This document shows, one piece after another, positions 7,282 through 21,062 of a stretch of DNA of 64,000 nt; the first letter of the stretch is position 1, and the number at the start of each line of letters is the position of its first letter. The position numbers were made by a program, and so were the translations under genes. The stretch comes from Numidum massiliense. Its GTDB lineage: Bacteria; Bacillota; Bacilli; Thermoactinomycetales; Novibacillaceae. The notes beneath the pieces were generated by a model, which had not been told where the DNA came from, ran no database searches, and was given only the letters and a program-made list of their open reading frames with translations. Where the stretch lies: assembly GCF_001375555.1 (NCBI RefSeq), contig NZ_CTDZ01000009.1, positions 186,001 through 250,000 on the forward strand. Reading direction: 5' to 3'.

Positions 7282-7785
7282 ATGCAACATCATTCCGTAC
7301 AAATGTATAACTATCACACGTGGGCCAACCAACAGGTGCTTGCCCACTTGCGTGAACTTCCCGAAGACATTTTTCGACGGGAGATTCCTAGCGTTTTTCC
7401 TTCGATTTCCGAAGTGCTCGTTCATATGTACGTCGCCGATAAAATGTGGGTAGAGGCGTTGCGCAAGAAGCTGCCCTTTGACGACGTAGCAAAGCTAAGT
7501 GAACAGTTGAAGGACGAAATGGCAACGAAAAACCTAGAGGAAATGGATGCGATGTTTGGCCAGTCTTCCGAGGAGTGCCGAACATTTTTCGCACAACATT
7601 GCGACTTGGAGAAGACTTTTACGCTAGAACACCCAAACTGGGAAAAAAAACAACTTCGCATTGCCGATGTGGTTGATCACCTCGTCAATCACGGGACGTA
7701 CCACCGGGGACATATTTCGGCGATGTTACGCCAAATGGGGCACAAAGGCGTGTCTACTGACTACGTGTTTTATTTGTTACGCTAA
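7282..7785 (+). CDS. DinB family protein
   Basis: This 167-aa protein starts at ATG 7282, set by GGAGG at 7269-7273; an upstream in-frame ATG at 7231 has no such site. DinB-like proteins are four-helix bundles with a three-histidine metal site. The expected histidines are visible in YNYHTWAN, VLVHMYVADKMW and HLVNHGTYHRGHI. Members include damage-inducible proteins and thiol-transferases such as bacillithiol S-transferases. The actual reaction cannot be told from sequence. It stands alone, with no operon partner. Confidence 0.85.
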   Translation: MQHHSVQMYNYHTWANQQVLAHLRELPEDIFRREIPSVFPSISEVLVHMYVADKMWVEALRKKLPFDDVAKLSEQLKDEMATKNLEEMDAMFGQSSEECRTFFAQHCDLEKTFTLEHPNWEKKQLRIADVVDHLVNHGTYHRGHISAMLRQMGHKGVSTDYVFYLLR

Positions 7786-8007
7786 TCGTCAAGAAAAACG
7801 TGTCTATACTTGAAAATGCATAAAACGCCGCCGTTTGATACGGTTTAACAAAATTGTATAGAATGCAACTATTTTTCTCAGAATGACCTTGAAATGAACA
7901 TCTTGAAGTGATAGACTAAAAATCATTAACATAAGGTGATTATTTGTACATGTTGTATAAATAACACCTTTTTTTATTCTACATTGTGGAGGCGATGTCA
8001 ACAATTT
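7786..8007. other. Leader region upstream of the amino-acid ABC operon
   Basis: No gene is seen in this 220-nt stretch. It contains AT-rich promoter-like sequence around 7840-7930, and no riboswitch signature is recognisable. Confidence 0.3.
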
Positions 8008-8664
8008 ATGGATCAATTTGTCGAGAGTTTTACTAGGACGTTTATCGGTTTTGTGAAAGCGGCAGGCGTAACATTGCAATTGACGGTCGTGTCTCTATTG
8101 TTAGCTTCTGTCATCGGTCTCGCGTTTGCTTTTTTGAAACTGTCGAAGCGGCGTACGCTGCGGTTAATTGCGGACGGTTACATTGGCATCATTCGTGGGA
8201 CACCGTTAATTGTGCAAATCATGTGGTTATATTTCGGAATTACCAAATTTGTCGTATTGTCTAAGTTTTGGGCGGGTGCTTTAGCACTAGCGATTCACAG
8301 TGGTGCTTACATTGCCGAAATATTCCGTGGATCGATCCAGTCGGTTGATAAAGGCCAAATGGAGGCGGCACGTTCGTTAGGAATGTCCAACACGTTGGCG
8401 ATGAAGCGAATTATTTTACCCCAGGCGCTACGGCGCGCAATCCCTCCGCTCGGAAATCAGTTTATTATCGGTTTGAAAGATTCCTCTCTCGTCGCGTTTA
8501 TTGGAGTGACGGAAATTTTCAACTTATCGATGAGTGAGGCTGCAGCTACGTTTCGACAACTAGAATTTTACACTATTGCTGGGTTGTACTATTTAGTACT
8601 GATCCTACTGTTTACGATGATCGTGAACAAAATTGAGAAGCGGCTCGACCAGGGGAGGAGGTGA
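8008..8664 (+). CDS. Polar amino-acid ABC transporter permease
   Basis: This 218-aa protein of the HisM/GlnP type has hydrophobic segments starting near residues 17, 65, 85 and 180. The cytoplasmic EAA loop reads [29 protein letters not shown], which docks the ATPase. FIGVTEIF and [10 protein letters not shown] are typical of this family. ATG 8008 follows GTGGAGGCG; the longer frame from 7936 has no site. It is the first gene of a three-gene operon with an ATPase and a lipoprotein. The substrate is probably a polar or sulfur-containing amino acid, but cannot be read from sequence. Confidence 0.85.
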
Positions 8665-8672
8665 TTGGCGGG

Positions 8673-9395
8673 ATGATTAAAATACGGGGGTTACAGAAAA
8701 AGTTTGGCGATGTATCGGTGTTGAAAGATGTTAGTTTGGATGTCGGGGAGCAGGAAGTTGTCGTTATTCTCGGTGCGAGCGGCTCGGGAAAGAGCACGTT
8801 ACTTAGGTGTATGAACTGTTTGGAGATAAAAGATGCGGGACAATTATGGTTCGATGGGCATCGAATTGAACCTTACAGCACCAATATAAATCAGATTCGC
8901 GCCGACATTGGCATGGTCTTTCAACATTTCAACCTATTTCCCCATATGACCGTGTTAGAAAACGTGATTGAGGCACCTGTACACGTCAAGCGCGATAATA
9001 AGGCAGATGCAAAAGAACAGGCACTATTGCTACTAAATAAGGTAGGAATGGCCGATAAAATAGACGTTTATCCGGAAAAGTTGTCCGGGGGGCAAAAACA
9101 ACGGGTGGCGATTGCCCGGGCGCTAGCGATGAATCCGCGTGTCATGTTGTTCGATGAGCCGACGTCAGCGCTCGATCCCGAGTTGGTCGGGGAAGTGTTG
9201 CAAGTGATGAAAGAGCTCGTGCAAGAGAGCATGACAATGGTTGTCGTCACACACGAGATCGGTTTTGCCCGCGAAGTGGCAGACCGAGTCGTATTTATGC
9301 ACGACGGAGTCATTGCCGAGGAGGGGAAGCCGGATGAATTTTTCCGCAATCCGCAGCACCCGAAGGCAGAACAGTTTTTAAATAGTGTGTTATAA
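8673..9395 (+). CDS. Polar amino-acid ABC transporter ATPase
   Basis: This 240-aa ATPase of the GlnQ/HisP family powers import through the preceding permease. It has Walker A (GASGSGKST, about residue 36), the Q-loop ([15 protein letters not shown]), signature LSGGQKQR, Walker B ([12 protein letters not shown]) and the switch His (VVTHEIG). ATG 8673 lies 11 nt after GGGGAGGAGG; the frame could also be read from GTG 8661, but that codon sits inside the ribosome binding site. Spacing of 8 nt from the permease stop indicates one transcript. Confidence 0.9.
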
Positions 9396-9409: not shown

Positions 9410-10198
9410 TTGCGCAAGTATTGGGGACTGGTTGTTATTTTGGCCGTGATGCTTTTGGCGGTCGCTTGTGCGACAGAGGAAAACGGTCAAGTAGACGGCG
9501 CTAATGGTGAAAAAAAGGGGGATGGTGAGGTATTTACGTTTGCCATGAGTGGGCTTTACCCCCCGTTTAACTACCAAGATAGTGGTAAGTTAACGGGCTT
9601 CGACGTCGAAGTTGGGATCGCCCTCGCAGAGAAAATGGGGATGAAGCCTGAACCCGTGTCCAACCCGTGGCAGACGATATTAGCAGCACTAGAATCGGGT
9701 AAGTTCGATGCGATTATCGGGAGTATGGCGATTACGAAACAAAGGGAAAAGAAGGTTGACTTTTCTGACCCGTACTACGAATCAGGGGCGCAAATCTTCG
9801 TATCGCATAAAAACTCTTCCATTAAAAAAGCGGATGATTTAAAGGGGAAAGAGATTGGTGTAGTCGTTTCGAGCAGTTTTGAGAAGGTGGCGAAGGAATA
9901 CACTGATAAAGTTGTGACGTACGACAGCGATGTGACAGCACTGCAAGATTTACTCGTCGACGGTCGTCTCGATGCCGTTATTACCGACGAATTAGTCGGG
10001 AAACACGCCATTAATCATAACGGCTTGAAAGTGAAACCGGTCGGTGACCCTCTTTATACAGATAAAATGGCGATTGCCGTGCAAAAGGGAAATAAACAAT
10101 TGCTAGAGAAAATTAACAAGGCGTTAAAAGAAATAATCGACGACGGCACCCATGCTAAAATTAGTGAAAAGTATTTCGGCGAAAATATATTGAATTGA
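9410..10198 (+). CDS. Amino-acid ABC transporter substrate-binding lipoprotein
   Basis: This 262-aa family-3 solute-binding protein starts at TTG 9410, directly after GAGGAGG. The N-terminus is a lipoprotein signal (LVVILAVMLLAVAC) with the lipidated Cys at about residue 20. The two-lobed domain shows SGLYPPFNYQ, LTGFDVEVGIALAEKMG, IIGSMAITKQREKKVDFSDPY and DAVITDELVGK, all characteristic of polar amino-acid binders. It completes the operon with the permease and ATPase and would deliver the ligand at the outer membrane face. A strong hairpin follows at 10227-10266. Confidence 0.9.
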   Translation: MRKYWGLVVILAVMLLAVACATEENGQVDGANGEKKGDGEVFTFAMSGLYPPFNYQDSGKLTGFDVEVGIALAEKMGMKPEPVSNPWQTILAALESGKFDAIIGSMAITKQREKKVDFSDPYYESGAQIFVSHKNSSIKKADDLKGKEIGVVVSSSFEKVAKEYTDKVVTYDSDVTALQDLLVDGRLDAVITDELVGKHAINHNGLKVKPVGDPLYTDKMAIAVQKGNKQLLEKINKALKEIIDDGTHAKISEKYFGENILN

Positions 10199-10226
10199 GT
10201 ACTTTAGGGGATTTTGAACATAGTAA

Positions 10227-10266
10227 ACGAATAACGGGGAAACGGTGAACGCTCCCTGTTATTCGT
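10227..10266. terminator. Bidirectional terminator between convergent operons
   Basis: ACGAATAACGGGGA at 10227-10240 pairs with TCCCTGTTATTCGT at 10253-10266 (one G-T pair). It sits between the plus-strand amino-acid transporter operon and the minus-strand ECF operon, which converge here, so it probably serves both. Confidence 0.7.
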
Positions 10267-10279
10267 GTACTACTGTTCG

Positions 10280-11110
10280 TTAAACAAATGGGTTGTAGAA
10301 CCGATTTCCGTCGTGGAAGGTGACGATGAGCGATACGATTAAGACGGCGGCGACAAAGGTGAGGGCGACATAATCTTGTGTTTGAAATGGGCGGGCGGCA
10401 TACCACGTCCGTTTGTTGTTTTTGCCGAAGCCGCGTAGCTCCATCACATTGCTAATCGTCTCGATACGTTCGAGGCTGGAAAAAATGAGCGGCAAGACGA
10501 TCGCGGAGGCGTTTTTAATCCTCTTAAACAACTTTTCTTTGCGCGATAGGTCGATGCCGCGCGCCTGTTGTGCGAGTGAGATGTCGCGAAAGTCGCGCTG
10601 AATGTCCGGGATGTAACGTAAGGCGATCGCGACCGAGTAGGCGACGCGGTAACTGACGCCGATCCGGTTGAGCGAGGATGCGAACTCGCTCGGATTGGTC
10701 GTCAAGATGAACAGCAACGCCGTGGGGATGACGGTCAAATATTTAAGCGTCACGTTAAATTCGTAAAACAACTGTTCCGCTGTGACGACATAGTTGCCGG
10801 CAATCGGAAACAGCACGTGTTTCGTCCCGTAAATTTTCACCCCCTCTTGCGGAGAAAAGATGAAAATGGCAACATCGTTTATTATGAGAAATATAAGTAT
10901 AAAATAAATAATGAACGATATTTCGCGCCATTTTACTTTCGATATTTTAAAAATGACGATACTCCCTACGAATAAAAAGAGGAGGACGCGCGTGTCGTAT
11001 GTGAGCATGCCCGCCGCCGACCACATGAGAAAACAGAGCAGTTTCGTCGCCCCAGTTAAGTTGTGAATCGGCGACTGGCGCTCGATGTACGATAACATGT
11101 CTACTGCCAC
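10280..11110 (-). CDS. ECF transporter transmembrane component (EcfT)
   Basis: This 276-aa membrane protein scaffolds the energy-coupling-factor transporter. It begins at GTG 11110 behind GGAGGTG, overlapping the ATPase gene by 10 nt. Several transmembrane segments precede the two diagnostic coupling motifs, AQQARGIDLSRKEK and VMELRGFGKNNKR, whose Arg-Gly pairs insert into the two ATPase domains. Order in the operon is S component, double ATPase, then this gene. It transfers ATP-driven motion to the substrate-binding S component. Confidence 0.85.
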   Translation of the reverse strand: MAVDMLSYIERQSPIHNLTGATKLLCFLMWSAAGMLTYDTRVLLFLFVGSIVIFKISKVKWREISFIIYFILIFLIINDVAIFIFSPQEGVKIYGTKHVLFPIAGNYVVTAEQLFYEFNVTLKYLTVIPTALLFILTTNPSEFASSLNRIGVSYRVAYSVAIALRYIPDIQRDFRDISLAQQARGIDLSRKEKLFKRIKNASAIVLPLIFSSLERIETISNVMELRGFGKNNKRTWYAARPFQTQDYVALTFVAAVLIVSLIVTFHDGNRFYNPFV

Positions 11111-12816
11111 GTCGCACGCACCTCCTGATCGTACGCGATAAAATGTTGCACAAATTGCCGCGGATTGGCTAGATGAGCGCGTTCAGCTAACGTAAAAAGT
11201 GACGTTTCTTTTAGGTTAGCTCGTGCGATGAGTTCGCGGTCGGTTAGGATATTCGCCGCAGTGTCGTCGGCGAGTGTCGTTCCGTCCCCGATGACGATCG
11301 CCCGCGGGGTGTATTCGAGCATTAAGTGCATGTCGTGGGTAATCATGAGAATCGTCACCCCTTGACGGTTGAGCTGCGATAAAAACTCCATAATTTCCGT
11401 ATAATGGCGAAAGTCTTGCCCCGCTGTCGGCTCGTCCAAAATGATCACTTCCGGATTTAACACTAAAATGGAGGCAATCGTGACGCGTTTTTTTTGTCCA
11501 AAACTTAGTGCCGCGATCGGCCAGTTGCGATACGGATACAAACCGCAAACTTTTAGCGCTTCTTCGACCCGCGGGCGTATGTCTGCCTCGGGAACACCGC
11601 GCACGACGAGGCCTAAGGCGACTTCATCGAAGATCATGTGTTTCGAGATCATTTGATTCGGGTTTTGCATTACCATGCCGATACGTAATGCCCGCTCTTT
11701 GATCGTGTCCGCTGTAATGTCTCGCCCATCGAATAAGATGCGCCCGCCGTTCGGTCGTTCAAAGCCGCAAATTAATTTGGACAGCGTCGACTTACCGGCA
11801 CCGTTTTTGCCGACGATGCTCACCATTTCTCCCTTAGATACTGCAAAAGAAACGTCTTGCAGCACTTTTTTCCCGGGCGCGTAACTGAAGCTAATGTTCT
11901 TTAGCTCCAATAGCGGGGCAGCGTCGCTTCGTGCGGCGGGTAGATGCGTACTTGCCAACCAGTTCGTCAGCTTCTGTTTGCATGAGTCTAGCTGAATGTG
12001 TGCAATGTGCCGTGGGCGCATTGCCGATGTAATCTCACAACCGGCATATTTCAATGCGGTCACGTACAGCGGTTCCCGTATGCCGCAGTCTTCCAACACT
12101 GTCGTCGCGAGCAGTTCGTCCGGCGGCAGAGCGGCGACGATGCGGCCTTCGTTCACGACGACGATGCGATCGACCTCGCGGTATAACACGTCCTCCAACC
12201 GATGTTCGACGATGACGACCGTCGTGTCGGTCTGCTGTTGGATGAGATCAATCAGTTCAATCGCGTGCTTTCCTGTGGCAGGATCCAAGTTCGCGAGCGG
12301 TTCGTCGAACAGTAAAATATCGACGTCGTCGACCATGACGCCCGCTAGGGCGACACGCTGTTTTTGGCCACCGGACAACTGGTGCACGCCGGAGGGCAAG
12401 TGGTCGTTCATGTCGACCATTTGCGCCACTTTTTCGACGCGCGTGCGCATTTGCGCTTGCGGCACGCAGTCGTTTTCTAACGCAAAAGCGATGTCCTCGC
12501 CAACGGTGAGGCCGATGAACTGGCCATCCGGGTCTTGCAAAACCGTACCGACCACTTTTGATAGCTTAAAAATGCTCTTATCCTTCGTTTCGCGCCCAGC
12601 AATGGTCAAGCTTCCGGTAATGTCACCTTTGTAGGAAAAAGGGATGAGTCCGTTGACACAGTGGGCGAGGGTGCTTTTTCCCGAACCGGAAGGTCCGATG
12701 ATGAGCACCTTTTCGCCTTTGTAAATCGTCAAGTTAATATCGTAAAGCGTCGGTTCCGCTTGGCTGCGGTACTTGAAGCCGAAGTTTTTAAACGCGATGA
12801 TCGGTTCTTTAGTCAT
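11101..12816 (-). CDS. ECF transporter double ATPase (YkoD-like, two ABC domains)
   Basis: This 571-aa protein fuses two ABC ATPase domains, so the usual EcfA1/EcfA2 pair is one polypeptide. Domain 1 (residues 8-235) has [17 protein letters not shown] and LLFDEPLANLDP. Domain 2 (about 300-520) has GKNGAGKST, LSFGQKKR (a variant signature) and IILDEPTAGQD. A roughly 65-residue linker between them corresponds to the DUF3744 segment of YkoD-like ATPases. It acts with the EcfT protein that follows and the S component that precedes it. ATG 12816 has AAAGGACGA just upstream. Confidence 0.88.
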   Translation of the reverse strand: MTKEPIIAFKNFGFKYRSQAEPTLYDINLTIYKGEKVLIIGPSGSGKSTLAHCVNGLIPFSYKGDITGSLTIAGRETKDKSIFKLSKVVGTVLQDPDGQFIGLTVGEDIAFALENDCVPQAQMRTRVEKVAQMVDMNDHLPSGVHQLSGGQKQRVALAGVMVDDVDILLFDEPLANLDPATGKHAIELIDLIQQQTDTTVVIVEHRLEDVLYREVDRIVVVNEGRIVAALPPDELLATTVLEDCGIREPLYVTALKYAGCEITSAMRPRHIAHIQLDSCKQKLTNWLASTHLPAARSDAAPLLELKNISFSYAPGKKVLQDVSFAVSKGEMVSIVGKNGAGKSTLSKLICGFERPNGGRILFDGRDITADTIKERALRIGMVMQNPNQMISKHMIFDEVALGLVVRGVPEADIRPRVEEALKVCGLYPYRNWPIAALSFGQKKRVTIASILVLNPEVIILDEPTAGQDFRHYTEIMEFLSQLNRQGVTILMITHDMHLMLEYTPRAIVIGDGTTLADDTAANILTDRELIARANLKETSLFTLAERAHLANPRQFVQHFIAYDQEVRATWQ

Positions 12817-12841
12817 TCGTCCTTTAATGATCGGTTACACC

Positions 12842-13396
12842 TCATTCTTTGTGTAAGCTACCGCTTTTCGTGCGCGATTTCGCGTATACAGTGACTAATA
12901 ATGTTCCTAAGATGCCGACGCTCAACATGTTGAGCCCACCGGAGACGATCCCCTGTAAAAACACTTTGTTCGCCGGTTCGGCGTAAATGACGATATCGAG
13001 GATCGGGGCGATTAACGGCCAGCCAATCGCTTGAATAATTACTTGGGCGATGTTGAAGCGCACGATTTGTTTTACGCCGAATTCGCCTTCTTCAATGTTG
13101 ATTTTTTTGAAGGCTAGTCCGAACAGGAAGCCGACGAACGCGGACACGAGGACCCAACTCCACCAAGGTGAACCATAAAAAATGGCGTCCTTTAGTGCGT
13201 GTCCGATGAAGCCGATGAGCCCGCCAGCTACCGGGCCGTACAGTAGCGCCATTAAGGCGAGAAAGGCGTAGCTCGTTTCAATCGTCGTATTCGGTACTCC
13301 GGTAGGGATGACGACGAAACGACCTAAAATGACGAATACTGCCGTGCCGATGCCGATGGCGACGATCGTTTTCGTACTAAGTTTTTTCTCTCCCAC
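12842..13396 (-). CDS. ECF transporter S component, UPF0397 family
   Basis: This 184-aa integral membrane protein binds and translocates the small-molecule substrate of the ECF transporter. The sequence follows the UPF0397 pattern closely: [60 protein letters not shown] and [20 protein letters not shown] 13396 is preferred over the longer GTG 13405, because AAGGA lies 8 nt before it and family members start with M-(G/K)-x-K-K-L. The substrate is unknown. The T-box and SAM-hydrolase gene in front point towards amino-acid, methionine or adenosine-related metabolism. Confidence 0.85.
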
Positions 13397-13465
13397 ACAG
13401 ACCACGTCCTTTTCTAAATAATTAATAATTTGTAATCGAGCAAAATCCGATTCAATGGGTCCGAA

Positions 13466-13535
13466 TCAACGACAACGAGTCAACGGCAACGAGTCAACGG
13501 CAACGAATCGACGGCAACGAATCGACGGTTACGGA
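13466..13535 (-). repeat. 14-bp tandem repeat, five copies
   Basis: Five consecutive 14-bp units (TCAACGACAACGAG, two TCAACGGCAACGAR, then two TCGACGGYWACGRA variants) lie between the SAM-hydrolase gene and the S-component gene. They sit in the otherwise short intergenic stretch of one transcript, just upstream of the S-component start. Their function is unknown; they could be a length-variable spacer. Confidence 0.7.
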
Positions 13536-13563
13536 TGATGGATACGCGCATTTATGTTGCTAA

Positions 13564-14421
13564 TTATTCGTAAACGATTTTCGGCGCTTTGCGGATGGCG
13601 ATGCGCCAATCGATGCCAGTGCCGATGTTGTACGCATTGGCAAACGACCCTTGATTGATCGCTACGCCTAAATTGTCGAGCGAATTGACGTACACGATCG
13701 GTTCGCCGACGCGAATATCGCTGAAGGAGCGTCCGAACACGATGATATTTTTGTACACGGTCCGTTTTCGCGTGTAGTTTTCAATCGTTACTTCGACGGA
13801 TTTGCCGTACGCGATTCCTAGATCAGTAAACAGCGAGCGGTGAATATTCGTCCACAAGTTGCCAAAGCGAACGTCCAAAATATCAATCGCTCCCGTAATG
13901 ACGTCGTCTTGCAGCTTGGTCGGAACGAGGGGTAATAAGGCGATCGAATCGACGGGTACTTCTGGTCCCACTTCTTCGAAACGAATGACGTTTGCAGCCA
14001 AGCGCGCGCCGGTATAGGCGTAAATGTCCCGTCCGTGAAACGTATAAGATTCCCCGGAATTCGGGAGTCGGTTTACCGATTCGTCGATGGTGCGCACTTC
14101 GGCAATCGCGTCTTTAATGTGAGTCAATGTCCCGTTGTCCGGCGTAATAATGTACTGTCCGGCGGTCGTTTTCACGGCAATGCTGCGGCGAGTAGACCCT
14201 ACTCCCGGGTCGACGACCGATACGAACACGGTCCCTTCGCGCCAGTAAGCGACAGTTTGCAAGAGGCGATAGGACCCTTCCCATATGTTATATTGGGGAA
14301 TGTCGTGCGTCAAATCAAAAATGCGGAGGTTTGGATCGACCGAGTTGGCCACCCCGTACATTGCGCTGACGGCCCCATCACTAGTCCCAAAATCCGATTG
14401 TAATACTAAAGCGTTCGACAT
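13564..14421 (-). CDS. SAM hydroxide adenosyltransferase / SAM hydrolase (DUF62)
   Basis: This 285-aa protein of the fluorinase/chlorinase-like DUF62 family hydrolyses S-adenosylmethionine to adenosine and methionine. The N-terminal SAM site (LQSDFGTSDGAVSAMYG), VVDPGVGS and the proposed Asp-Arg-His water-activating set (D71, R78, H129 in YTFHGRD) are all present. That set separates hydroxide adenosyltransferases from true halogenases. It is the first gene of the ECF operon and sits 35 nt after a T-box terminator, so it should be induced when a specific tRNA is uncharged. Confidence 0.85.
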   Translation of the reverse strand: MSNALVLQSDFGTSDGAVSAMYGVANSVDPNLRIFDLTHDIPQYNIWEGSYRLLQTVAYWREGTVFVSVVDPGVGSTRRSIAVKTTAGQYIITPDNGTLTHIKDAIAEVRTIDESVNRLPNSGESYTFHGRDIYAYTGARLAANVIRFEEVGPEVPVDSIALLPLVPTKLQDDVITGAIDILDVRFGNLWTNIHRSLFTDLGIAYGKSVEVTIENYTRKRTVYKNIIVFGRSFSDIRVGEPIVYVNSLDNLGVAINQGSFANAYNIGTGIDWRIAIRKAPKIVYE

Positions 14422-14455
14422 GTGTCTCGTCTCTCTCCTTCTTGTCTAATAAATT

Positions 14456-14712
14456 AAAAAACCCCGCCCTTAATAATTCAAGGGCGAGGTTTAATTCCCG
14501 CGGTACCACCTAGATTTACTATTTGCTCACACAAATAGCCTCGACAAGTACGGAGCGCAGTTTCCAATGCGGTATGCCAAGCCTTTTCCGCCTGCTTCGT
14601 CCCCCAGTTGCGTACTTGGCGTAGCGTACGTGTCGCAACGCGCCAGAGTACTAGCGGAGGAAGATCGACAAGGTGACAGCAGCTGAGATTAGCGGCTTAA
14701 CATATGTGTGCA
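14456..14712 (-). promoter_or_regulatory. T-box riboswitch controlling the SAM-hydrolase/ECF operon
   Basis: Read on the minus strand, the leader ends with the T-box core AGGTGGTACCGCGG (plus 14498-14511). The terminator AACCTCGCCCTT/AAGGGCGGGGTT plus a T-run follows at 14492-14456. Upstream lies a Stem I: CCGC/GCGG at its base, then the specifier-loop motifs AGTA (around 14650) and GAA (around 14597). The triplet directly after GAA is GCA, which would be an alanine codon, but this reading is uncertain. No ATG in the loop supports a Met specifier. The variable T-box base T fits a tRNA with discriminator A. Confidence 0.88.
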
Positions 14713-15125
14713 CTGCTTTGCTCTTATACTGTGGTATTGTTAACGAGTACCAAATCTCGTCGTCCCCTACTCAGATCCTCCAGTGAGATGTGGATCGGTT
14801 CAGTTGACGCAGCTCGGAGACCATTTTTCACTTGCACCGTTTTTTGCTTCTTTTCAGCTACCGAAGCTCTCTGGAGAAAAAACAGTTGCAGCTACTTTTC
14901 TCGTCATCGCCTTTGCTGTTTCAGTGTACTGTTGGCTTAACGCCTCGTGTGTTGTCTTTCGTGTTGTAAAGATTATTGGATACTATATCGCACAGTGGAA
15001 AAAATGTCAACGGTGAAATTGTCCCCAGTCAAGTTAGCGATCAGCGGAGGCCTCCCCAAAAGAAATACACTGCAAGATTAAGAGATTACATAAGGACAAT
15101 TAATGTGGATTCATCCTCAACTGCG
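14713..15125. other. Intergenic region between the T-box and the M23 peptidase promoter
   Basis: Apart from the probable promoter for the T-box transcript near 14725-14755 (a TATAAG hexamer on the minus strand), this 400-nt stretch shows nothing I can support. The small open frames here have no ribosome binding site and no recognisable protein. Confidence 0.4.
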
Positions 15126-15154
15126 TTGACATTCGTATAGAAAAAGGGTAATAT
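15126..15154 (+). promoter_or_regulatory. Strong sigma-A promoter with long leader before the M23 gene
   Basis: TTGACA at 15126-15131 and TAATAT at 15149-15154 are separated by exactly 17 bp. The next gene starts at 15479, giving an untranslated leader of about 315 nt. I see no known riboswitch consensus in that leader. Confidence 0.55.
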
Positions 15155-15478
15155 TTTGTATGTAAGCGATCTCTAGCAAGTCTTATAGCGTCAGAGGTTG
15201 TTCATTTAGGGTTGCGACATGTTATCAAGCGCTGTTATCCGCTAATGAATGATGTGAATGCCATGATGCTACTTGGGTTTCTTGTCAGAAAATATCTCAA
15301 TCTCTAGTAGACAAGCATACGGTGAAGCAGACCGGAGTTACATTTTACTGTTGATCGTTGGGGGGTGATGACGATGTAACGGTAGGAGGGTACGCGACGT
15401 CGTTCATTTTGGAAGATCTACTCATTGTTTGGAAACTTCCAGTGAAAAATGAGGAAACAATAGGGGGTAATTAAAGTA

Positions 15479-16276
15479 ATGAAGCGTGTCACAATGACGA
15501 TTCTCTCTGCGGTGCTTTTAGTTGCGTTGTTGTTAATAGGGCCGATCCCACAAGTTGCCGATGTGCAGGCAGCACCGAAGTTCCAAATGCCTTTTCCTTG
15601 TGGGCAAAAGTGGCAAGGAAGCACGCGGAAAAATCATAGTCCTAAGCTTGCCGTCGACTTTAGTCGTTCCGGTGCAAAAGGAAAAGCAGTCGTCGCCTCC
15701 GCGGGCGGTACTGTCGAAGTCGTTACAGACCTTAAGAATAGGAGCTACGGGAAGTACGTCGTGATTAACCACGGTGGAGGTTGGAAAACGTACTACGCAC
15801 ACTTGAACTCGTTTAGTGTGAAAAAAGGGCAGAAAGTGTCGATGGGAACGAAAATCGGCACGGTCGGCAGCACAGGTAATTCAACTGGTCCTCACTTGCA
15901 CTACGAGCAAAGGTACAATGGGAAATTGCAGTATATCAAGTTAAACGGCAAAAAGATTACCTACTACGGTAAAAAGACGTACACGAGTAACAATAAGTGT
16001 GGCAGCGGAGGTGGCGGTAAAAAGCCAGTCACAGGAACGGTAAAGACGAGCGGTAAGAACTTAATTGTCAGGTCTGGCCCGGGCACGAAGTACAAAGCGG
16101 TCGGTACGCTGAAGAACGGGCAAAAAGTAACGATTACGTGCCAGACGAAAGGAAGTAAAGTGAAGGGTACATACGGCACGAGTACCCTCTGGAATAAAGT
16201 GGGGAAAGGCTACGTGTCTGACGCTTACGTTTATACGGGCTCGAACAAGCAAATTGCGCCAACTTGTAAGAAGTAG
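15479..16276 (+). CDS. Secreted M23 family metallopeptidase with SH3 domain
   Basis: This 265-aa cell-wall endopeptidase has a signal peptide over residues 1-32 (ending ADVQAAP). The M23/LytM domain spans residues 36-170, with zinc ligands H53, D60 (LAVDFS) and the GPHLHYE motif (H139, H141). A glycine-rich linker (GSGGGGKK) leads to a C-terminal bacterial SH3 domain (KNLIVRSGPGTKYKAVGTL) for wall binding. Substrate would be peptidoglycan cross-bridges or stem peptides. ATG 15479 follows TAGGGGG by 11 nt. The H-x6-D spacing is wider than in lysostaphin but is seen in related secreted M23 proteins. Confidence 0.85.
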   Translation: MKRVTMTILSAVLLVALLLIGPIPQVADVQAAPKFQMPFPCGQKWQGSTRKNHSPKLAVDFSRSGAKGKAVVASAGGTVEVVTDLKNRSYGKYVVINHGGGWKTYYAHLNSFSVKKGQKVSMGTKIGTVGSTGNSTGPHLHYEQRYNGKLQYIKLNGKKITYYGKKTYTSNNKCGSGGGGKKPVTGTVKTSGKNLIVRSGPGTKYKAVGTLKNGQKVTITCQTKGSKVKGTYGTSTLWNKVGKGYVSDAYVYTGSNKQIAPTCKK

Positions 16277-19430: not shown

Positions 19431-21062
19431 GTGGCGAAAATTGTTTATTTACCGTTGGATGAACGTCCATGTAATTACTCGTATCCACAGCAATTAGCAG
19501 CGATGACCACGCTTGATTTCATCGTTCCCGAGCGGTCGTTACTCGGGAATAAAAAGGAGCCAGCCGACATACCAGCCATACAGGAATGGCTGAAAGAGGT
19601 GACGATCGACGCCGATTACCTTATTGCCTCGATCGATCTGCTCGTCTACGGGGGAATTGTCCCCTCTCGGTTGCACCAATTGTCTATGGAACAATGCTTA
19701 GCGCGTTTGCACATACTCGCACAAATTAAACAGGCGAATCCAAAGCTGAAGATTTACGCTTATAATCTCATCATGCGCACACCTGCTTACGACAGCAGCG
19801 ATGAAGAACCGGATTACTATGAGTACCATGGCCGACAGTTGTATTTGTACGGGTGGCTGACAGACAAGGCGGCAAGAGGAGAATTGACAGCAGCAGAGGA
19901 GACGCAATTGGTAGAAGTTAAAGCTAATCTTCCGGGCGAGTATTTAGACGATTTTATGTCGCGTCGGTATGTGAATAGCGCCATTAACAGCAACAGCATC
20001 GATTTAGTGTCACAAGGTGTTGTCGAACGGTTAATTATTCCGCTCGACGACAATTCCGCGTACGGTTTCACGGCTCAAGAGCAGCGGCAGTTAGTTTTTA
20101 AAGTCGCAGAGATGAACCTCATGGATCGCGTAGCGATTTACCCGGGAGCTGACGAAATTGGGTGTACCTTGTTTGCCCGCGTGTTTTGTGAAACGATGCG
20201 CTATACACCGGAAATATTTGTTCGTTATTCTTCGACACTTGCACCGTTCATTATCCCGAAACTCGAAGATCGGACACTAAACGAGAGTATTAAACATCAG
20301 TTGACAGCTGCTGGGGCAGTGATGGCAGATCATTCTCGGGATGCACATGCGATACTAATGGTTCATGCGCCAGCAGTAGGAGAAGCGAATGTCGCCGACG
20401 GGCAACCGTTTGCCGAGCGGCACGCGTCTTATTACTCTGAAGTGAACATCCCTGAGTTTGTACACGCCATCGAGAATTATTTGGGGAAAGGTAAACTTGT
20501 GGCGCTTGCAGACGTCGCTACCATTAACGGCAGCGACTCCACGCTAATGGACATACTGAGTAAGTTAGGCCTATTAGCTGACATCGCGGCTTACGCTGGA
20601 TGGAACACGATGGGTAATACGCTCGGTACAGTCATTGCGCACACGGTGATTGAGTCGTACTATCATACGGCGAACCGTTCAAACGGCTGTTCAGTCGATC
20701 GTGTAACCGTTCGCTCCTCGACTAGAAGCAACGATAGTGATCGCCTGAAGCAGAGTCGCGTCTTTTACTATTCACGCTTAGTTGAAGATTGGGGGTATCA
20801 AGCAGTCGTCCGAGGAGACGTATGCGAGAACGACTTGCCTTCACTCGGAGTTACCGTTAGGGACTTGTCCTCTAGACAGAATCAAATAGAAAAAATCGTT
20901 GCTGGTAAGCTCGAGACTTTTGTCCACAAAAAATTACAACAAGGGTGTCGGGACACCATTACGTTAAGTGACGTTCACTTGCCGTGGCGGCGCATGTTCG
21001 AGGTCGGATTTACTCTTGAACTTCAAAAAAATGATAGTCATTTGGCAGACCACTACTTGTAG
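19431..21062 (+). CDS. DUF4127 family protein
   Basis: This 543-aa protein starts at GTG 19431 and matches the DUF4127 pattern: YLPLDERPCNYSYPQQLAAM at the N-terminus, SIDLLVYGGIVPSRLHQL, YPGADEIGCTLFARVF, and LADVATINGSDSTLMDIL with AGWNTMGNTLGTVIAH near the C-terminus. The conserved D-E-R-P-C and G-A-D-E-x-G motifs look like an active site. No signal peptide is present, so it is cytoplasmic. Its biochemical role is not established. Here it sits between a sugar isomerase/oxidoreductase pair and a sugar importer, arguing for a carbohydrate or glycoconjugate function. Confidence 0.85.
   Translation: MAKIVYLPLDERPCNYSYPQQLAAMTTLDFIVPERSLLGNKKEPADIPAIQEWLKEVTIDADYLIASIDLLVYGGIVPSRLHQLSMEQCLARLHILAQIKQANPKLKIYAYNLIMRTPAYDSSDEEPDYYEYHGRQLYLYGWLTDKAARGELTAAEETQLVEVKANLPGEYLDDFMSRRYVNSAINSNSIDLVSQGVVERLIIPLDDNSAYGFTAQEQRQLVFKVAEMNLMDRVAIYPGADEIGCTLFARVFCETMRYTPEIFVRYSSTLAPFIIPKLEDRTLNESIKHQLTAAGAVMADHSRDAHAILMVHAPAVGEANVADGQPFAERHASYYSEVNIPEFVHAIENYLGKGKLVALADVATINGSDSTLMDILSKLGLLADIAAYAGWNTMGNTLGTVIAHTVIESYYHTANRSNGCSVDRVTVRSSTRSNDSDRLKQSRVFYYSRLVEDWGYQAVVRGDVCENDLPSLGVTVRDLSSRQNQIEKIVAGKLETFVHKKLQQGCRDTITLSDVHLPWRRMFEVGFTLELQKNDSHLADHYL

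Follow-up and report, generated by a model that had tools for sequence, protein, structure and literature searches.

In Numidum massiliense, a T-box leader whose specifier is almost certainly the methionine codon ATG precedes a gene for a SAM hydrolase and the genes of an ECF transporter. These features lie in the window (the whole stretch of 64,000 nucleotides that we analyzed) and are listed in Table 1. The genes directly downstream of the leader encode, in order, a DUF62 protein with both SAM_HAT domains, an ECF S component, a double ATPase, and a T component, which bears out the proposal in an earlier note on this DNA that a T-box precedes a DUF62 SAM hydrolase and ECF genes. All four genes belong to a single operon. 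We think it quite likely that this operon serves methionine supply, and likely that it is a module for obtaining methionine from SAM, with the transporter as one of its parts, that is induced by methionine starvation.

Table 1. Positions of the leader, its parts, and the four downstream genes in the window.
Feature	Position	Strand	Evidence
Predicted promoter, TTGACA-17-TATAGT	14982..15010	-	11/12 consensus matches (the sole evidence); same strand as the T-box, upstream of it
T-box leader (stem I, stem II region, insert, stem III, antiterminator)	14477..14916	-	RF00230 covariance match
Stem I with specifier loop	about 14916-14806	-	
Specifier codon in the loop of stem I, ATG (Met)	14822..14824	-	Covariance alignment; register; homologous leaders
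Insert between stems II and III, ~150 nt	14562..14720	-	Alignment with two relatives, which lack the insert
Stem III (GGCTATTTG...CAAATAG)	14519..14540	-	Aligned to the model's stem III
T-box motif AGGTGGTACCGCGG	14511-14498	-	Sequence present
T-box motif and antiterminator	14483..14511	-	RF00230 alignment, fold
Intrinsic terminator, 15 pairs then T run	14492-14459	-	-21.1 kcal/mol, z -5.8; first in terminator scan
SAM hydrolase (DUF62, SAM_HAT_N and SAM_HAT_C), 285 aa	13564..14421	-	Pfam 5.6e-50 and 7.6e-23
ECF S component, 187 aa (PF07155 / PRK13661 family)	12842..13405	-	Profile matches
ECF ATPase, two fused ABC domains, 571 aa	11101..12816	-	TIGR04520 419.3 bits (cut-off 315), TIGR04521 361.9 (cut-off 330)
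ECF T component, 276 aa, overlaps the ATPase gene	10280..11110	-	PF02361 5.7e-27

A default Rfam scan of the window gave no match, as the score of the leader is below Rfam's gathering threshold. Its alignment to RF00230 runs from end to end (model positions 1-219 of 219) and scores 77.6 bits (E 5.7e-17), as compared to a gathering score of 93. A scan of the whole genome with RF00230 recovered the same leader (E 6.4e-17) as one of 20 T-box matches. The low score is likely due to the insert of about 150 nt, as relatives of the leader do not have it: close relatives score 97-115 bits against RF00230, which is above 93, and the two that we aligned score 109 and 114 bits. The insert folds back on itself (-52 kcal/mol), and with a z of only -1.8 this fold is weakly better than those of shuffled sequences. 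We also considered whether the insert was a repeated element, which was ruled out by its being present in a single copy in the genome.

The rest of the leader has the expected parts. The AGGTGGTACC motif is conserved within the full-length covariance match, and the helix at the position of stem III covaries in relatives. The antiterminator and the terminator are mutually exclusive: the 5' arm of the terminator overlaps the antiterminator, and the common segment is 14492-14483. The predicted promoter is the best among 10 promoter-like sites in 10150-15300. The earlier note had placed a complete T-box at 14456-14712. The T-box is real, and both AGGTGGTACCGCGG and the terminator are present in that span, but the leader is encoded by the minus strand and takes up more sequence (14916-14477). 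The span covers the 3' half only (the insert, stem III, the antiterminator, and the terminator) and is without stem I.

The choice of specifier depends on stem I. In the RF00230 alignment, ATG (14824-14822) is set opposite the model's specifier. This codon is also in the register that the genome's other T-boxes share, where nine bases that end with GAG or a close variant follow the codon. As a control for the register, we read the codon at the same position in those T-boxes (the downstream genes were named by eye from their translations). This gave TAC before genes for tyrosyl synthetase and DAHP synthase, TCC before serS, ATG before metS, CGG before argS, CTC before leuS and ilvB, ATC before ileS, TGG before trpS, CCC before proB, GGC before glyQ, TGC before cysE, GTC before valS, and TTC before pheS. 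Furthermore, ATG is invariant across the homologous leaders that precede a SAM hydrolase in Bacilli (56 of 56). These leaders are the one in the window, 42 from loci in our first survey (see below) with a T-box motif, eight from a second family, and five from genomes that have only the hydrolase; one of the 56 (L127) was read by eye. The helices of the homologous leaders covary, with 24 of 39 predicted pairs changed on both sides. Three more pairs predicted by RNAalifold have their first bases in the specifier loop (columns 116-118); these pairs had no changes on both sides, and we took them to be spurious.

The 3' part of the leader is consistent with a reading of tRNA-Met. TGGT (14508-14505) is complementary to the ACCA end of tRNA-Met, and ACCA is the end of both Met(cat) tRNAs that we recovered here. 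The discriminator of tRNA-Met is A, which the variable base in TGGN matches; this variable base is A in the Gly and Cys T-boxes and C in Ser, which matches their tRNAs. The pairing with the discriminator does not separate Met from Ala, as the discriminator of tRNA-Ala is also A. We found nothing in favor of the earlier note's proposal that the leader responds to alanine through a GCA specifier instead of ATG. The GCA triplets in 14456-14712 occur by chance. That span does not include stem I, and the covariance alignment places the specifier elsewhere, at an ATG outside the span, in agreement with the genome's register and with every one of the homologous leaders. Such a placement is one of the outcomes that the note itself had named as refuting its proposal. 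We see practically no chance that this is an alanine-responsive T-box. ATG also matches the function downstream, as a SAM hydrolase releases methionine. The note had expected that one amino acid would control both the enzyme and the importer; the T-box should indeed couple them in this way, and the amino acid would be methionine, not alanine.

As a T-box, the leader is ordinary, and methionine T-boxes are already known. It has the architecture, the AUG register, the UGGU end, and the competing antiterminator and terminator in common with other Met T-box leaders (RF00230), including that of metS in this genome. It differs from them in the insert between stem II and stem III and in its target, which is a SAM-consuming hydrolase and an ECF importer, not a synthetase or a biosynthesis gene.

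The predicted hydrolase is far above the cut-offs for both of its domains (169.3 bits for SAM_HAT_N, cut-off 26.3; 81.1 bits for SAM_HAT_C, cut-off 25.5). D71, R78, and H129 line up with motif positions of PH0463 and are invariant in three relatives. We take these residues of PH0463 to be its Asp-Arg-His triad, which appears to be intact in the window's hydrolase. DUF62 proteins, for example PH0463 (2wr8, 1wu8), are among the solved chains closest to this enzyme. In DUF62 proteins the His-Arg-Asp triad is strictly conserved, and it is absent from halogenases (review, PMC10491745). Both Pfam domains and the aligned triad positions are common to this enzyme and to the DUF62 SAM hydrolases PH0463 and StDUF62. 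The window's enzyme differs in that it is in a regulated operon with a transporter and in that it does not reach the cut-offs of NCBI's equivalog families for (R)-SAM hydrolases (139.7 versus a cut-off of 350, and 118.6 versus 470).

The ECF complement in the operon is complete (S, A, A', and T are all present). All of these components, and the S-component fold, are common to ECF operons with S, fused A-A', and T genes; the link to a SAM hydrolase is what distinguishes this operon from them. In its predicted structure (pLDDT 90.9), the S component has the S-component fold and matches solved S components with Z up to 17.4. The S component is labelled as a riboflavin transporter by the names of PF07155 and of NCBIfam PRK13661 (255.3 bits, cut-off 99), and if the transporter does carry riboflavin, then its place behind a Met T-box would be incidental. 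When we compared the S component to PDB sequences, solved RibU included, we found no relatives at E up to 1. The model matches the chains of ThiT, FolT, and RibU (S components for thiamin, folate, and riboflavin) about equally, with Z of 15-17 and all within about 3 of each other. Because the predicted fold does not clearly single out RibU from ThiT and FolT, the riboflavin label is unconfirmed. The conserved linkage to SAM hydrolase and a SAM riboswitch before one relative of the S component (both described below) also argue against it, and we consider riboflavin to be a very unlikely substrate.

We surveyed the gene neighborhoods in two ways. The first survey comprised 80 named genome loci that were selected by the hydrolase. 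At most of these loci, S, A, and T genes are within a few kilobases of the hydrolase. The T-box is present in Bacillaceae-type loci and is absent from the Clostridium, Lachnospiraceae, and Gemmiger-type loci. The second survey comprised 299 Bacilli genomes, with E below 1e-40 defining a strong match to the S component. The S component is found in 34 of these genomes, the hydrolase in 36, and both in 26 (Fisher p 1.8e-22, uncorrected for kinship). In all 26 genomes with both genes, the two are adjacent, and because they are always adjacent, we suspect that the substrates of the hydrolase and the transporter are linked.

Each half is also found without the other. Five genomes with the hydrolase and without the S component have kept the Met T-box, so the T-box alone says nothing about the transporter. 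Conversely, the hydrolase is absent from 8 of the 34 genomes with a strong match to the S component, and S components without a hydrolase occur in one family of large-genome Bacilli (f9). In one genome (G002), which has no hydrolase, a relative of the S component (41% identical) is directly behind a SAM riboswitch; the link of the S component to this riboswitch comes from this genome only. The Met T-boxes of the hydrolase-only genomes and the SAM riboswitch before a lone S component tie each half to methionine or SAM on its own. The earlier note had hoped for a clue to the substrate of an orphan S component, and linkage to methionine or SAM is indeed seen for both the hydrolase and the S component. 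Methionine control is not universal, as several related operons (streptococcus-like, Clostridium, and Lachnospiraceae) do not have a T-box and some genomes with the S component do not have the hydrolase.

We propose that the leader acts as a transcriptional T-box that reads tRNA-Met. If methionine is short, then uncharged tRNA-Met would pair through its CAU anticodon with the AUG of the specifier and through its ACCA end with UGGU. Binding of the tRNA would allow the antiterminator to form and the four-gene operon to be transcribed. The hydrolase would cleave S-adenosylmethionine, either the cell's own or imported, to methionine and adenosine. The dedicated ECF transporter would import a compound from this pathway, the most likely being SAM (either epimer) or a close compound that yields methionine. 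If tRNA-Met is charged, the terminator would form and the SAM-wasting enzyme would be off. Methionine as the output is supported by the ATG specifier and by the hydrolase-only operons. The induction by methionine starvation, the hydrolytic activity of the window's enzyme, and the substrate of the transporter are what we infer from sequence.

The same genome has four SAM riboswitches, which precede genes for a metN-like ATPase, a cystathionine synthase/lyase-like protein, an O-acetylhomoserine sulfhydrylase-like protein, and homoserine dehydrogenase. For a SAM hydrolase, a SAM riboswitch would be self-defeating because low SAM would switch the enzyme on. A sensor of the charging of tRNA-Met would avoid induction by low SAM, and in this respect a T-box seems to fit a SAM hydrolase. 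These riboswitches before methionine and sulfur genes could also be part of a circuit in which the tRNA-Met sensor induces the destruction of SAM, and the resulting drop in SAM then turns on the genes for methionine biosynthesis and uptake through their SAM riboswitches. In keeping with this, at one locus (L190) a SAM riboswitch is directly behind the T-box-hydrolase unit. However, such a circuit leaves the ECF transporter unexplained, and a shortage of methionine should lower SAM in any case. We consider this coupling improbable.

SAM or a close relative is the leading, although unproven, candidate for the substrate of the transporter: the constant adjacency of the two genes favors it, and the dissociations allow methionine or a precursor. 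That the substrate is SAM or its epimer seems possible, short of probable. Only tentatively do we suggest the full route, in which SAM, either fresh or epimerised, would enter through the ECF transporter and be split by the DUF62 hydrolase to methionine and adenosine. It may instead be, and we take this possibility seriously, that the hydrolase recovers methionine from the cell's own SAM (mostly the spontaneous R,S epimer) while the ECF transporter imports some other compound that supplies methionine, such as methionine or a precursor. Recovery from the cell's own SAM would explain why hydrolase-only genomes still carry the Met T-box, and it is consistent with the preference of a DUF62 enzyme for (R,S)-SAM (PMC12120602). 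Separate import would account for the S components without a hydrolase in the large-genome Bacilli. It would also resemble a "methionine precursor" group of ECF transporters that Rodionov et al. reportedly described in 2009 and tied to methionine by regulation. The adjacency of the two genes in every Bacilli genome that has both speaks against separate import, as it suggests linked substrates.

Some of the related operons without a T-box have other putative leaders. The Lachnospiraceae-type SAM hydrolase operons (L065, L072, L075, L084, L094, L097, L103, and others) share a short leader <=60 bases upstream of the hydrolase start. Directly after the -10 box, it consists of TGCAAGG, a variable hairpin, CCTTAGC, 3 to 4 bases, and AAAGG(A), which overlaps the ribosome binding site. 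This leader was present in 13 of the 16 genomes searched, at most once per genome. Its covariation is weak, and a search with one locus gave no Rfam match even at E 5. It is a candidate small regulatory RNA, in which either the AAGG farther upstream or the ribosome binding site could be the pairing partner of CCTT. In L065 (6501-7361 and 11527-12369) and L072, there are two different DUF62 hydrolases per operon, one as the first gene and one before the S gene, and both have SAM_HAT domains; one for each epimer of SAM is a possibility. The SAM hydrolase operon of L065 also includes a GNAT acetyltransferase that is fused to a GntR-type DNA-binding domain (7374-8927).

In the Clostridium operons (L053, L056, L059, L071, L091, and L102), CGAAT/CGAAC and TTCG boxes are found 30 bases apart, about 50-105 bases upstream of the hydrolase. 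These boxes (CGAAT/ATTCG, with fixed spacing) surround the promoter and resemble PurR boxes. In those Clostridium genomes, purE is not first in its operon, so it offers no comparison of PurR boxes. Purine control would fit with adenosine being the second product of the hydrolase. At a streptococcus-like SAM hydrolase-ECF locus (L142), RF02616 (SSRC8_2) matches 321-623, below its gathering score and near the hydrolase end; the leader of the operon may include this "sRNA". As for the neighbors of the T-box operon in the window, a secreted M23 peptidase with an SH3 domain is encoded divergently from it (15479-16276, plus strand). Farther along (19431-21062, plus strand), a DUF4127 protein is encoded beside a Gfo/Idh/MocA oxidoreductase and a sugar isomerase-like protein, and a sugar ABC transporter-like gene set follows.

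Methionine T-boxes, DUF62 hydrolases, and ECF transporters are already known separately, and T-boxes have been used before to assign transporters (Wels et al. 2008, PMC2494555). Our literature search found no paper that reports an operon with a Met T-box, a SAM hydrolase, and an ECF transporter, and earlier reports of this exact association are possible. Why cells keep DUF62 enzymes, which hydrolyze costly SAM to its parts, is a question that is still posed (PMC12120602, PMC10491745). The conserved Met T-box, with or without the transporter, points to a testable role for these enzymes, namely the release of methionine during methionine starvation, and the link to methionine gives an orphan S component with a riboflavin label concrete candidate substrates. 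If SAM is both imported and hydrolyzed, then the operon would be a SAM-scavenging route to methionine, which would give a physiological role to a large part of the DUF62 family.
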